From assembly GCA_000333855.2 (NCBI GenBank), contig CM007317.1, positions 844,729 through 898,159 of the forward strand: a stretch of 53,431 bases of DNA. Reading direction: 5' to 3'. The position numbers and the translations under genes were made by a program. Every line of letters begins with the position of its first letter. Positions within the stretch are counted from its first letter, which is position 1. The DNA comes from Endotrypanum monterogeii (Eukaryota > Euglenozoa > Kinetoplastea > Trypanosomatida > Trypanosomatidae). Below, piece after piece: positions 5,375 to 50,886 of the stretch. The notes beneath the pieces are model-generated. The model saw only the letters and a list, made by a program, of their open reading frames with translations. It made no database searches and was not told the DNA's origin.

Positions 5375-8300
5375 ATGGGGACTTTCGCTTTGTGCTGGGA
5401 GAGCGCGGCGCGCGATATTCGCTCGTTGCTCACGCTTCATCGTGTTCATCCTCAGGTTCGTACCGACATTCAGCGCATTCTTAGCAGCCTTCTCCGGAAA
5501 ACATACGAGCATATGACCGTGTCCCTCTCAGAAGACCTCACAGATTCTCCGGAGCAAGTGTGCCGCGCAATAGTAGACGACATTGTAAAGGACACCTTTT
5601 CTTCGGCACTTCCAGAGTCGGATATGCGTGCCTGGAAGCTTCGCTGCATGACGCTCGAGGAAGAAAAGGCGAACCTCAAAGCGTCCGCAGCAGAGGATGC
5701 CCGTCGTATCGCGGAGCTGCAGGGGCTGCTGGGAGATCTAAAGAAAGCGCACGACTACATGTTGCACAGCTACTTTAGAGAAGTTCTTATGTTGCGCTAC
5801 CGTGCCGACGATCTTCACCGACAGCTTCGCAATCGACGTGCGCACGCAACAGGTCTCACCTCGCACCCTGGCGGCACCAGTTCCTCACCTCAGACGGTGG
5901 CGTCCCAGTTGCATCAGTTTGGTTCAAAGACAGCTTATTCAAGAGGGCGGTGCTGCTCGGCCAGTCAGAGATCAACTTCGGCGCTATCACCGCCTGCGCC
6001 TTGTGACACACCTGACATGAACACCGGAGTAGGTTATAAAGGCGCTCAGGTGCAGCACTCAGCTCACCCCGACCTCCAAGAAAATCAGTTTGAGGCTGAT
6101 GCCCATGTACGAACACCAGCAGCTGCAGCCAGCGTGGCTACAGAGGGTGCAGCTGCGACATCGCTGGATGACACGAGTGTGTGTGTGTCACATCGAATGC
6201 AGGGTGGCAAGAACCACGATGTTTTTGGCTCCTCTCTGGGACGAACGGGTTCCCGGCCTCCGAAGGTTGCATCGCCACACACAATAGGTGTGCCAACATT
6301 TGCAGCTATGGACGGCACGGAGAACGTTGCTGCCGACAGCGTCGACGCGATTTTCGATTATGAAGAGTACATTCGCATCTTTAATGGCGAGAGTGAGAGG
6401 CATGCCGCTTTGCAAAGTCGTTTATCAAGGGCTTTAAGCATTTCAGAGCCTCGAATTACGGAGAACCGTCATCGATTGCATAATGCGCGCACTCAGATGC
6501 ACCCTGAAGCTTACGTACCTGTCGGAAGCACTTCTGGCAGCCTCCTCGCGAATTTAGAGGCCGCTTCCGCGGCTTCGCTGACGGATCAAGGAAGCGTGAA
6601 CTCCAATGGGTTTCGCTTGTTGTTGGGCATTGTGCTGGAGCCGATCCAGCACGGTTTCCATATACAGCTGGAGGAGCTGCGGGAGGCTGTGACGGCAATG
6701 CAACAGAAGCACGCGGATGATATGCGACAAATTCGGTATGCACTGAATGTCGTTCAAAATTGTAACGATGCATTGCTCGACTTCCTCTACACATTTGTGC
6801 ATCAGACACGGAGTATCGTCTCTGCGATCGCGAAGGATGCGCAGGCGCAGAACATCATGGAGCTGCTTTCTACCGCTGCGCCTTCCGTTCAAGCGAGTGA
6901 GGCCATGAGGCCCTTCTTCACATCCGCCGAGTCGGCGACGACGGCAGTCGATCAACAAGGTCCCTCCCCGCCAGCAGACTCATCACCGCCAACACCACCA
7001 CACTTTCCGTCTGCGGAGGAGTCGTCTCGGGGGCCCGCCGCGCGCAACCTGTCGTCGAGGAAGAAATGGCGCCTTAAACCCAATGTGGCGCTCCGGGTAC
7101 AGAGGAATCGATCGAGCGCGTTCTCCATGCATGCTAAGCAGGGGGGCGCGTGCTCCGTTGAGATGGCGTCTCGAATGCCACATGCACCCAAGAACACTGC
7201 CGAAGAGGTCAACTACTACCGTGCTGACTTGTCACTGCCTTACTGGAGGTCGCATCCCGTCACTTCCCAGGTACAGGTAGTCTTTGATGAGCTGCTAGAG
7301 GCCGTTGCAAAGGTTCGCGCTGTGCGGGCGAGCCACCTCTTAGAAGCCGACGGATCTGGAAATGCGAAGGAATTTCGCCTGGAGAGGGAGGTCCACGACG
7401 CCATGGCTCTGAGTCGATACAACAGCGATCAACGGAACAGCCGCTCTCAGTGTGTAGCCTCCGAAGCTGATGAAGCCGACATCTCACACTATTTTTCTTC
7501 CAGCCTCGAGGGAGATGACCTGAGTGAGATATGGGGGGGTCATCGCTCTCTACCGGAGGGGTGGCGCACATCGGTTGTCAGTGGTACGGACGGACTGTCG
7601 GCTGCGGACTTGCTGCACGAACTTTCGAGTGCGCGGATGCGCCGGGCGTGTGACCGGGTGCGTCTTAAAACTGTGGAGGCGAGCCTTCTGCAGGTTGACA
7701 GGGATGGCACTTCACGGACAGAAGAAGAGCTGCGGCAGACCACCGAGTCACGCGTTCGACAGGCGGACGGGGGGCTGGTTCAGGGAGGCAGTGAGGCTCG
7801 CGTTCGGCAGGCAGACGAGGAGCTGGTTCAGGGAGGCAGTGAGGCACGCGGTCGGCAGGCGGACGCGGATTCGTTGCGTGTGAGCGTGCTGGAAAAAATC
7901 CACAAACGAACGCAGAGGCGGATGACATCCACATCGATGCGTATTTCCGAGATCCAGCGACTTCTCTCTCGCCACACGAGAGAGTTCAGTCTGCGGAGTT
8001 CGGATGTGTCTCTCAGGTCACAAGGGTCGAAGGCAATGGCAGCTGGGGAGTATCAGGAACACTTCCCTCTTGACAACATCTCGAAGACAGAAGAAGAACT
8101 TTGGAGCTCTCCCTACCTTAATGACACCACTCTAGACATGATCAATCGGTATTACTCACGAGGTGGCGCCTACAGCCGTTACTGTCGTAAGGGGGTGTTG
8201 TACCTCCCGGTTGGACTAATCCCGGAACAAGACGCCGACGGCAACACTGTCGGCGGCTCTGGTTCCTTCATCGTACTGGACGGCTCGACAGTCTCTGCAG

Positions 8301-46731: not shown

Positions 46732-49700
46732 ATGTCTTCATCTTCATCGGCACACAACACTGTGTCGCTCTACCGCTATGACCTCACACAGGGGATGGCC
46801 CGCAGTCTCGGGCCAATGTTGATCGGGCGTCCGCTCGAGGGAATCTGGCACACCTCCGTCGTTGTGTATGAAAAGGAATACTATTTCGACGGTGGCGTTG
46901 GTATTGTCGCTGCCCCCAATCCCGGCAGCACTCGCTTTGGCCAGCCATATCGAATTGAAATACTTGGGCAAACAACAAGGAGCGCGGAGGAGTTCTTTGC
47001 GTGGACGCAGGTGCAGCGTTACTCAGGCTTTGGCCCCAACGATTACAATGTTCTCCACAACAACTGCAACAGCTTCTCGGATGCGTCGAGCATGTATCTC
47101 CTCGATCGCCACATCCCACAAGATGTGCTTGACATGATTCCCACATTATTATCTACGCCTTTAGGGCAAATGCTGCGACCCATGCTAGAGCAGGCCACGT
47201 CTGGTGTTGCAGGCATGAGTCCACCTGGCGTCGTTTCTTCCCCCAATCCTTCCCTTGCTCCCGCAGCGCTACCGGCGACTGCCGGCAACCGTGACGCGTG
47301 TGCTGGGCTCCTGAGCAGTCGTCAAACCGTAACAGAAGACGACGAGGAGGATTTAATGGTTGTTCAGGCGATGATGGAGAGCAACGAGACCATCGCAGAT
47401 GGGCACTTGAGTCCTTCTGATTCTTTCGAGAAGACATTGAGCGGTCTGAAGCTACTGCGCATGGTGATGCTTAACATTATCGAACACCCCACCAGCGCCA
47501 AGTACCGAGCCCTGTCTACCGCGAGCACTGCTTACCAGACCAAGTTGAAGTCACTTGAGGCATACGGGGTGACGGAGATTATGCGCATTGCCGGCTTTTG
47601 CCGCCGACCGCACAGTGGCGGCACCGGTGGTGAGCAGTGGTACCTGCCTGACAGCGATGGCAGCGCAGTTGTGCTGCGTCGCGTGACGGAAGTTCTTGGG
47701 GCAACTATTTCGAACATTCAAGCTGCTGCTGACGAGGCGGCGAAGAAGCGTGGCGCGAAGGATCGCGCGGCAGTGGAAGGTGACGTTCATACTTACACGA
47801 GCGGCGCTGTTCAGTTTTGCACGCTGCCCTTTCCGAGCGAGTGGACGCCGCTCCCCGTTGGGGAAGAATCTGGTGCTTTACTTTTTTTAATTCGCGTCCG
47901 CTCTACCAGTACTTCAGAGAATCCGTATTGCTTCGGCAAGGTTTGTTTTTCTGCTGATCAGCAGTACCAGCAGGCACACTGTTGCACCAGTGATGGCAGG
48001 GAAGTCAAGGTAAATGGGGAGTATGAGGTACTCTGCGTGCGGCATGGGGAGGAGCGTACTCTGACGTGGGTGCCTGCGCCACTAGCTTCCGCTGTGCAGG
48101 CGCAACATAACACATCGTTCATAATTGCGGCATACCACCATTTTGGAATTGTGCGGGCCGAGCAGGGAGGTAGTTTCCACCCTGGGGTCATGGAGCCCTC
48201 TGGTCGCTGCGTAGTCCCCTATGGCGGGCGCGCTGTGGTGGTCACCAACGATGCTGAGGTACTCTGCGAGACGACCAGGCTGCCACAGGCGGTGCTGCAG
48301 GAGTTGGAGGCTCTCCAACATGGCACCCACTTGGCAGAACTCCTGCGTGCCGCAAGCGGTGGGCCCATCGGATCATTTGACCAGCTTCTGAAGACTTGGA
48401 AGCCGCCGGTTTTCTATATGAAGCCGCGCCCACTGCGTCCGCACACCATTTCAGGACCAGCCTTACTGGGGTGGTGTGAAGCAGAAGACGACTCCAAGGG
48501 AACTTCATCGATTACAGCATCTGCACAGCCATCGCCGACCAAGGCTGGGAAGGCGACACACAGCGTGAAACGGGAAGGTCCATGTCTGCTTGTGTGTCAC
48601 GACATGTGCGGCGGTTATACACTCGCCGATCGCCGTGTTTTTCTGTGTGAAGGCGCACCATCGTCTGCTACCGCGTCTGCTGAGGATATAGAAGAGAGTG
48701 CTGGTGATGGCGTACACGTCCGCCTTCCGGCAGTGGAAGGCGCATACACGCCAAGCTACTGGAATCGCGCCGACTGCTTTGTCTACTTTTCGCATAAACG
48801 GATTAGTGTGCCTCCGCGTGAGTGGATCGACAGCGGCCACGCCCACGGTGTTCCTGTGCTTGGCACCATACTCACTGAGGGAGAAAGCGGTGCCGCAGAC
48901 TTGCGCTTACTCTTGACCGATGCGGGGGTCATGGCAGCCATCATTGCGCGCCTCGTGGACGTGTGCAACGCCTATGGTTTCGACGGATATCTTATCAACT
49001 TTGAAAATAATCTCCCCAAGAACCTGGCGAAGCGCCTCGTCGTCTTCTGCACGCAGCTCCGAAAGCACCTTAACCGCGCATCTTCAGCTGCTCGTGAGGC
49101 ATCGCCTCACACGGCTGTTCCTGATCGACTTGTTATATGGTATGATGCCGTCATGGAAGACGGGCATTTGAGCTATCAGAACGCCCTCAACTCCTGCAAC
49201 AAACCCTTCTTTGACAGCTGCGATGGCATCTTCACCAATTACTTCTGGAACCCGATGAGCCTGGCTATGTCTAGAGCAGTTGCTGGTAGTCGAAGTGCCG
49301 AAGTCTACGCTGGTGTCGACGTGTACGGTAGGCACATGTATGGCGGGGGTGGCCACAACACGTACGTGGCTGTCGCCGAAGTCGTGCGTGCGCGTTTGTC
49401 GGTGGCTCTGTTTGCCCCTGCTTGGACGATGGAGTGTGAGGGCAAAGGAAGTCGCGACTGCTTTCAACGGGCAGAGGGTCGCATGTGGTCTCCTATGCAG
49501 GAGAAGTTCCCCTACCACGCTCGGCTCCTATCGTGCACAGATACGTCCACAGATACCTCGCTACCCACTCCCCCGGATGGTGTACGGGGTGCACACCACG
49601 AGCGGAGGCTTTGTGCGTGGACCTCGTTTCGGTCTGGAGTGGGCTACGATTTTTATGTCAACGGCCATCGCATTACTGGAGGTGGCACTGCTGCTTTTGT

Positions 49701-50886
49701 TGTCCGAACCAGTGGCTGGTGTGAGGTCTCTGGTGCGCACAGTCTGCCTCCGTTCCTTTTCCAGGCACCTTCATCGGCTTCGTCTGATGAGGTATCTCCG
49801 CGTTCTGCAGACGCAACTACAGCGGGTTACTCAGCCCCCTTCGCAGCACTTCCGATACAGCTGCCGATGACGACGCTAAAGCACAGCGTGTACGGAGGAG
49901 TGACTCGCGCCGAGTGGCGCTACGACAAGGCTTGGTTTGGCGATCGTCATCTCGTGTGTTTTGTGCCGCCAGTGGGGGCAGCTGAGGTGCTACGGTGGTA
50001 CGTGCGCGAGGCGCTGCCGGCTACTCCCTTTACTGAACTTCACATTGAGGTGGTGTATGAAGAGACACATGCAGCCCATGAGCCCGCGGTGCACCATCGC
50101 GGGTTACATCTCGCGTTGCTCTCTGCCAAAGGTAATCCCTTCCAGGCAGCTATCTGGGAAATCCCCGCGTTGGCGTCAGAAGTGGCGGTAGAGGGCGTGA
50201 ACGGCATCGTCGCGCGTGTGTCCAAGACAAGCGAAGGCGGGGAGGAAGCGGGGAGTGGTCAGGAGGGATCTACCTCCCGCTGGGTGCGAGTTCTCTACCA
50301 GCTGCGGAACACATCAAGGGAGTCGTATCACTTGACTTCTATTGCAATTGCCAATAATAACCCTCACCAAGCACTGACCTGCGCTGTAGGCGGGGTTGGC
50401 GTCTCTCATTGTCGTGTGGATACGTCAAAACTGTCAACAGGCGCAGAGACGCCCTTCACTGTCTCAGCGCCACACCATCCCATCTTGCATGCCGAGGGTC
50501 CTTATTCGTGGAGTCACCACCACACCTTCTGCACACGCCGAGGTTCTGAGAAGGTGCTGACTCTCGAGGGTGCGGGCCAGGTGTTGACACATCTTCGTGC
50601 CAAACATGGAGCTCATGTATCTATCGTGGTATTTGCCAGCGTCGCCAGAGCGGCAACGGGGTCCACAGTAGGCGAAACCAAGCGCGGCGAGAGTGATGAG
50701 CAGGCCTCCAAGGAGGTGATCTCGTGCGCAAGAAGACACAAGGAGTCTCACACTATGTATGCTGGTCATTATTCTATTCTAGACGCCGACGCAACATATA
50801 AGGATTCCTTGCCGATTCCGGTCTCGCTGCCATCCGGGGTGGAGGTGGTGAAGGTGTTCTATTACCTGGTGCCCGAGGGCTACTAG
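46732..50886 (+). CDS. DeSI-type isopeptidase + PUB + DM9-like + GH85 endo-beta-N-acetylglucosaminidase fusion
   Basis: A 1384-residue multidomain protein. Residues 11-153 are a PPPDE/DeSI domain, a permuted papain-like fold that removes SUMO or ubiquitin. Its probable dyad is His40 (IWHTSVV) and Cys112 (HNNCNSFSD), as in DeSI. Residues about 231-326 match a PUB domain (NIIEHPTSAKYRAL), which in peptide:N-glycanase binds p97/VCP. Residues about 356-520 hold two DM9-like repeats, the second with CVVPYGGRAVVV. Residues about 555-940 are GH85, the cytosolic endo-beta-N-acetylglucosaminidase fold that cuts the chitobiose core of N-glycans. GFDGYLINFENNL carries Asn756 and Glu758, equivalent to the catalytic Asn and Glu of the family. 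FFDSCDGIFTNYFW and VALFAPAW also fit. The remainder is beta-rich. No signal peptide is seen, so it is probably cytosolic. The frame opens at 46609; ATG 46732 is preferred because DeSI starts right after it. Confidence 0.92.
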   Translation: MSSSSSAHNTVSLYRYDLTQGMARSLGPMLIGRPLEGIWHTSVVVYEKEYYFDGGVGIVAAPNPGSTRFGQPYRIEILGQTTRSAEEFFAWTQVQRYSGFGPNDYNVLHNNCNSFSDASSMYLLDRHIPQDVLDMIPTLLSTPLGQMLRPMLEQATSGVAGMSPPGVVSSPNPSLAPAALPATAGNRDACAGLLSSRQTVTEDDEEDLMVVQAMMESNETIADGHLSPSDSFEKTLSGLKLLRMVMLNIIEHPTSAKYRALSTASTAYQTKLKSLEAYGVTEIMRIAGFCRRPHSGGTGGEQWYLPDSDGSAVVLRRVTEVLGATISNIQAAADEAAKKRGAKDRAAVEGDVHTYTSGAVQFCTLPFPSEWTPLPVGEESGALLFLIRVRSTSTSENPYCFGKVCFSADQQYQQAHCCTSDGREVKVNGEYEVLCVRHGEERTLTWVPAPLASAVQAQHNTSFIIAAYHHFGIVRAEQGGSFHPGVMEPSGRCVVPYGGRAVVVTNDAEVLCETTRLPQAVLQELEALQHGTHLAELLRAASGGPIGSFDQLLKTWKPPVFYMKPRPLRPHTISGPALLGWCEAEDDSKGTSSITASAQPSPTKAGKATHSVKREGPCLLVCHDMCGGYTLADRRVFLCEGAPSSATASAEDIEESAGDGVHVRLPAVEGAYTPSYWNRADCFVYFSHKRISVPPREWIDSGHAHGVPVLGTILTEGESGAADLRLLLTDAGVMAAIIARLVDVCNAYGFDGYLINFENNLPKNLAKRLVVFCTQLRKHLNRASSAAREASPHTAVPDRLVIWYDAVMEDGHLSYQNALNSCNKPFFDSCDGIFTNYFWNPMSLAMSRAVAGSRSAEVYAGVDVYGRHMYGGGGHNTYVAVAEVVRARLSVALFAPAWTMECEGKGSRDCFQRAEGRMWSPMQEKFPYHARLLSCTDTSTDTSLPTPPDGVRGAHHERRLCAWTSFRSGVGYDFYVNGHRITGGGTAAFVVRTSGWCEVSGAHSLPPFLFQAPSSASSDEVSPRSADATTAGYSAPFAALPIQLPMTTLKHSVYGGVTRAEWRYDKAWFGDRHLVCFVPPVGAAEVLRWYVREALPATPFTELHIEVVYEETHAAHEPAVHHRGLHLALLSAKGNPFQAAIWEIPALASEVAVEGVNGIVARVSKTSEGGEEAGSGQEGSTSRWVRVLYQLRNTSRESYHLTSIAIANNNPHQALTCAVGGVGVSHCRVDTSKLSTGAETPFTVSAPHHPILHAEGPYSWSHHHTFCTRRGSEKVLTLEGAGQVLTHLRAKHGAHVSIVVFASVARAATGSTVGETKRGESDEQASKEVISCARRHKESHTMYAGHYSILDADATYKDSLPIPVSLPSGVEVVKVFYYLVPEGY

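Follow-up and report, generated by a model that had tools for sequence, protein, structure and literature searches.

A stretch of 53,431 nucleotides from contig CM007317.1 of Endotrypanum monterogeii (assembly GCA_000333855.2, positions 844,729 to 898,159), hereafter the window, contains a gene at 46732..50886 on the forward strand that encodes a single chain of 1384 residues with a DeSI isopeptidase domain, a PUB domain, a DM9 lectin fold and a GH85 barrel. Within the open frame no in-frame ATG precedes the one at 46732, and the stop codon, included in these coordinates, lies at 50884-50886. We favour, with moderate confidence, the reading that the product is a cytosolic endo-beta-N-acetylglucosaminidase (ENGase) built to work on p97 (VCP), where it would de-N-glycosylate clients of endoplasmic reticulum (ER)-associated degradation (ERAD).

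Four domains in one chain

Pfam domains were judged against curated cut-offs, and folds were assessed with AlphaFold2 models followed by Foldseek and VIA-align comparison. The initial annotation had described four recognisable domains in one uninterrupted frame, and all four exceeded their cut-offs, DM9 barely, with folds supported by the models; the catalytic pairs His40/Cys112 and Asn756/Glu758 were also correctly placed. Transglut_core was absent among the four Pfam families of the protein (E<=1), and a scan with NCBIfam matched 0 families. All features below are on the forward strand, in window coordinates.

The DeSI (PPPDE, Peptidase_C97) domain occupies 46753..47205 (residues about 8-158; Pfam match at residues 10-152, E 2.9e-25). 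The structures closest by sequence to the N-terminal part were those of DeSI-1, 3ebq (E 2e-31) and 2wp7 (E 1.9e-30), and the model contains the permuted papain fold with its His/Cys pair, at 39-42% identity to the known isopeptidase across the domain in the fold comparison. His40 and Cys112 were kept in all rows of a 35-row orthologue alignment. DeSI-1 itself is short and stands alone, its solved chains having 168-170 residues, whereas here the domain heads a 1384-residue chain. Removal of SUMO or ubiquitin is its predicted activity.

The PUB domain, including its first helix, lies at 47332..47721 (residues about 201-330; Pfam match at residues 233-309, E 1.2e-11). The PUB fold was present in the model, residues 205-328 aligned to 2hpl_A, and the top fold match was the PUB domain of peptide:N-glycanase (PNGase). 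K257-Y258-R259 aligned with the KYR of mouse PNGase PUB, though the sequence-only match was weak (E 0.017); position 258 was Tyr or Phe in 33 of 35 rows and Arg259 was kept in 34. The p97 of the same genome, a 788-residue frame ending in DDDDLYS, provides the tail ligand for such a domain. The accessible part of a Leishmania VCP (LiVCP) paper describes in silico docking of LiPUB1 on DDLYS, the retrieval of a third PUB protein by genome search, and binding of the p97 tail by PUL as by PUB (PMC7403338). The PUB domain of the fusion protein is thus a candidate p97-binding domain, judging from these resemblances. A ubiquitin-interacting motif (UIM) considered in the acidic helix at residues ~200-219 was dropped: none of the eight orthologous pieces scanned matched UIM, and the helix proved to be helix 1 of the PUB fold. 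LinJ.33.1130, a hypothetical protein reported, in what is accessible of the source, from two LiVCP-cofactor pull-downs, was not equated with the fusion protein, as its number would imply a distant position on chromosome 33.

The DM9 lectin fold spans 47809..48276 (residues about 360-515). Its best Pfam stretch, residues 473-513, scored 28.2 bits against a cut-off of 26.2 (E 2e-6), fell below the cut-off in the six-frame genome search (19.4 bits, E 0.019), and no individual DM9 stretch of the protein passed by itself when the 35 alignment rows were re-scanned. Structure comparison gave firmer evidence than sequence: a 9-row DM9 profile searched against the PDB returned nothing beyond two chance matches (E 1.3 and 1.7) and did not recover the oyster lectin CGL1, but the fold comparison did. 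A full DM9-length segment was present in 24 of 35 rows and DM9 was called by Pfam in 18, so the domain in more distant rows rests on the alignment. CGL1 is described, in the accessible text, as strictly specific for mannose and high-mannose N-glycans, with Asp22, Lys43 and Glu59 among the mannose contacts of site A (PMC4932603). Lys403 and Glu424, kept in 23 and 22 of the 24 full-length rows (the other 11 of the 35 rows have short segments there), would correspond to Lys43 and Glu59, and Glu379 may be the counterpart of Asp22, with the motif register judged by eye. Glycan binding by the domain is predicted on this basis.

The GH85 barrel and its edge lie at 48577..49653 (residues about 616-974). 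Glyco_hydro_85 matched residues 670-974 at 282.6 bits against a cut-off of 22.2 (E 5.7e-84), Foldseek returned 2vtf_A (E 1.8e-21), and the closest structures by sequence were of bacterial enzymes (E 8e-15 to 3e-13). Of 39 aligned rows, including three plant or fungal enzymes, 38 have the Asn-x-Glu pair, N756/E758; in P0050 alone Gln replaces the Asn. Cleavage of the chitobiose core is the activity predicted for this barrel. The beta-rich C-terminal region at 49654..50883 (residues about 975-1384; AlphaFold2 predicted template modelling score, pTM, 0.85) probably corresponds to the beta domains located after the barrel in GH85 enzymes of bacteria, although the Foldseek alignment to 2vtf_A covered 844 columns at a root-mean-square deviation of 8.7, because of which a domain-by-domain equivalence is not established.

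Conservation and origin of the fusion

Three protein searches each scored the 7990-7997 candidates with most shared words, and absences from them are therefore soft; two of them gave 37 and 36 matches. Besides the query's own, 32 clusters carried C97, PUB and GH85 in one chain. Carriers included Porcisia hertigi, six Leishmania records, Novymonas, two Leptomonas, and Trypanosoma melophagium, T. conorhini, T. rangeli, T. grayi, T. cruzi, T. cruzi marinkellei and T. vivax; the remaining clusters were placed with kinetoplastids by similarity alone. Orthologues on other contigs aligned with the protein end to end, which rules out chance read-through. With these clusters and the catalytic residues kept in 35/35 and 38/39 rows, the comparison across trypanosomatids proposed in the initial annotation found both the fusion and its active sites conserved. 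Exceptions among relatives were L. tarentolae P0016, which lacks C97 and PUB, and T. congolense P0051, which lacks C97. Both gene models start inside the protein, with the DeSI part wholly or largely missing; a wrongly assigned start site may explain them.

A first alignment comprised 20 of 22 sequences (P0004 and P0007 left out), and the 35-row alignment omits P0016 and P0051, whose N-terminal part is missing. In a Pfam re-scan of the latter, C97 was called in 35/35 rows, PUB in 34/35 and GH85 in 33/35, the query row being a slice that ends before the barrel. The DeSI, PUB and GH85 domains were more conserved than the four measured linkers in every comparison having them (19 in total, 18 with the N-terminal part), as was DM9 wherever present. 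Against P. hertigi, identity was 87% in DeSI, 78% in PUB, 72% in DM9 and 78% in the GH85 barrel vs 39-59% in the linkers. The C-terminal region was less conserved than some linkers in several distant rows.

In a GH85 tree of 37 rows chosen out of 166, 21 fusion-labelled rows, P0050 and P0051 among them, grouped with P0060, apart from the animal, plant, fungal and bacterial enzymes; support for this split was modest (89/73, unstarred). P0060 has GH85 by Pfam and a DM9-like sequence by eye, with no DeSI or PUB in the predicted frame. As P0060 is nested inside the fusion side, the fusion label needs two changes on the tree, and no bootstrap tree gives one. A single origin of the fusion, followed by loss (or a cut gene model) in P0060, fits this pattern without being proven by it.

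Several divergent proteins were also recorded. P0050, from a metagenome, keeps the DeSI His/Cys pair, gave no PUB match, has lost the PUB Lys-Tyr and carries Gln in place of the GH85 catalytic Asn; it may be a pseudo-enzyme. In P0059, a protein of 618 residues, C97, ubiquitin-like and PUB domains are combined but GH85 is absent, so DeSI-PUB exists apart from the glycosidase. FBA (F-box-associated) domains of Fbs proteins bind N-glycans, and in the metagenomic P0024 and P0025 GH85 is fused to such a domain (E 5.1e-9 and 9.9e-20). Another lectin-like pairing, the third, occurs in P0023, where GH85 is joined to a jacalin domain (E 3e-10).

Proposed function and its alternatives

The genome (30.7 Mb, 44 contigs) was searched with profiles in six frames. 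GH85 has a single locus there, C97 has four, and PUB also has four, of which one scored beneath cut-off. A separate PNGase gene, which the initial annotation had proposed to look for, did not appear: no Transglut_core match was found at E<=1, whereas 10 of 14 control genomes were positive. A search for the PAW domain matched no control genome and counts for nothing on this absence. Rad60-SLD, a SUMO-like family, matched nine places at E<=0.1, six above cut-off and possibly including ubiquitin-like genes; no control matched. PUL matched weakly (E 5.2e-4, below cut-off) in the C-terminal part of a second DeSI protein, located at 506023-506439 of contig 32, which we count in favour of a link to p97.

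In the mechanism that we favour, the PUB domain would hold the C-terminal tail of the p97 hexamer while DM9 catches N-glycoproteins extracted from the ER by their oligomannose glycans. The GH85 barrel would then cut between the two core N-acetylglucosamine (GlcNAc) residues, leaving one GlcNAc on the protein, and the DeSI domain would take ubiquitin, SUMO or another modifier off the client or p97 cofactors. The fusion protein would in this way perform the de-N-glycosylation step of ERAD, which falls to NGLY1 elsewhere, in a lineage where PNGase was not detected. The initial annotation had proposed such a self-contained module; its domains, folds, catalytic residues and matching p97 tail are borne out here, while p97 and glycan binding, the two activities, the order of the steps and the role in ERAD are what we infer from them. 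As a more tentative extension, which we hold somewhat less probable than its opposite, kinetoplastids may have replaced PNGase with a p97-docked ENGase having its own lectin and isopeptidase, so that clients would reach the proteasome with single N-GlcNAc stubs, deglycosylation and deconjugation being coupled on one chain.

Several observations weigh against a p97-docked ENGase acting on ERAD clients. Nine Trypanosoma-type rows (P0018, P0042-P0049) have 18-25 residues in place of DM9, indicating that the lectin is dispensable in those. CGL1, a DM9CP lectin, is described in the accessible text as a small free dimer with two sites (PMC4932603), whereas the second CGL1-type mannose site lacks its Lys in 24/24 rows here; if the by-eye register for the Lys/Glu of site A is right, one mannose site may remain. 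The best 120 of 181 matches to the T. congolense protein included no T. brucei orthologue, and some kinetoplastids may therefore do without the fusion. A single Pfam model, applied in six frames, underlies the absence of PNGase, and no GH38 mannosidase to process released glycans was found in the genome (E<=0.1; 4 of 14 control genomes positive). The fusion protein is not among the proteins named in the accessible part of the LiVCP paper (PMC7403338), and ENGase in mammalian cells is placed, in the accessible text of PMC2909182, on free oligosaccharides.

This last point leads to the alternative that survives best, though we regard it as unlikely: GH85 would mainly trim free cytosolic oligosaccharides, with PUB and DeSI serving regulation or location and not client deglycosylation. 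The ordinary GH85 fold in Foldseek agrees with it as well, but a domain of the p97-docking type and an isopeptidase on the same chain suggest protein clients, without a PNGase-type core the cell would lack one of the usual sources of free glycans, and the GH38 mannosidase was not found. Slightly less probable again is a damage sensor, in which DM9 would recognise luminal glycans that become exposed when lysosomes or other organelles break, and recruit p97, deglycosylation and deconjugation; the known set for clearing damaged lysosomes comprises UBXD1 (with PUB), PLAA (with PUL) and a deubiquitinase. It is improbable that the PUB domain binds a partner other than p97 through a tail-like motif: complexes of the HOIP PUB with OTULIN and SPATA2 motifs are among its fold matches, but HOIP PUB also has a p97 complex (4p0a), the best match is PNGase PUB, and the DDLYS tail occurs in the same genome. 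That two or more genes were joined artificially in assembly or annotation is hardly credible, since the short P0016 and P0051 models and P0060, with GH85 but neither C97 nor PUB, which would favour it, are set against 32 further single-chain clusters and the internal starts of those two models, which may be errors.

Relation to known systems and neighbouring genes

The protein shares with cytosolic PNGase (NGLY1/Png1) a PUB domain of the kind that docks on the p97 tail and, as proposed, N-glycan removal from retro-translocated proteins. NGLY1 has a transglutaminase-like core and leaves Asp, whereas the fusion carries GH85, whose cut would leave a GlcNAc stub, plus DeSI and DM9. With the cytosolic ENGases of animals and plants it shares the barrel with its Asn/Glu pair and the lack of an evident signal peptide; those among the matches listed (including the best 120 of 181) have GH85, often with PF25529, and neither C97 nor PUB.

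A 2004 article on PPPDE peptidases by Iyer, Koonin and Aravind reportedly mentions fusions to PUG/PUB and PUL domains. Orthologues are already labelled ENGase, glycosyl hydrolase-like or PPPDE protein in databases. A 2018 paper noted that the T. cruzi 'Peptidase C97 DUBs' (deubiquitinases) Q4DM33/Q4DJ21 combine C97 with PUB and glyco-hydrolase domains on a single chain, and proposed them as a drug-target idea; its accessible text holds nothing on DM9, p97, ENGase activity or ERAD (PMC5976635). The initial annotation knew of no experimental description, and none was found in the open-licence PubMed Central (PMC) literature; the combination of C97 with PUB and a glyco-hydrolase has been in print since that paper. 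Given this record and the listed animal and plant ENGases without C97 or PUB, we see the protein as a probable cytosolic ENGase wired to p97.

If the proposal is true, this would be a natural glycoprotein disposal that uses ENGase without PNGase. It would bear on NGLY1 deficiency, the harm of which has been attributed to N-GlcNAc stubs, and trypanosomatid cells may reveal how such stubs can be tolerated. According to the accessible text of PMC5398483, Ngly1-null mice are partly rescued when Engase is lost as well. The protein also offers a ready test of the coupling of deglycosylation and modifier removal on p97, in an architecture absent from the animal ENGases among the matches listed.

To go by chromosome number only, LiPUB3, LiPUB2 and LiPUB1 of the Leishmania VCP paper (PMC7403338) may correspond to the PUB loci found on contigs 36, 11 and 9. 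Three genes named in PPPDE papers were not used as evidence: LinJ.09.1360 and LINF_090020400 have chromosome-9 numbers, and T. cruzi TcCLB.506755.50 could not be mapped to the fusion gene. Nine neighbouring frames were scanned, and none of their Pfam matches suggests a glycan or ubiquitin function; four frames had a match at E<=0.01, two of them above cut-off (CFAP91 and PH_31).

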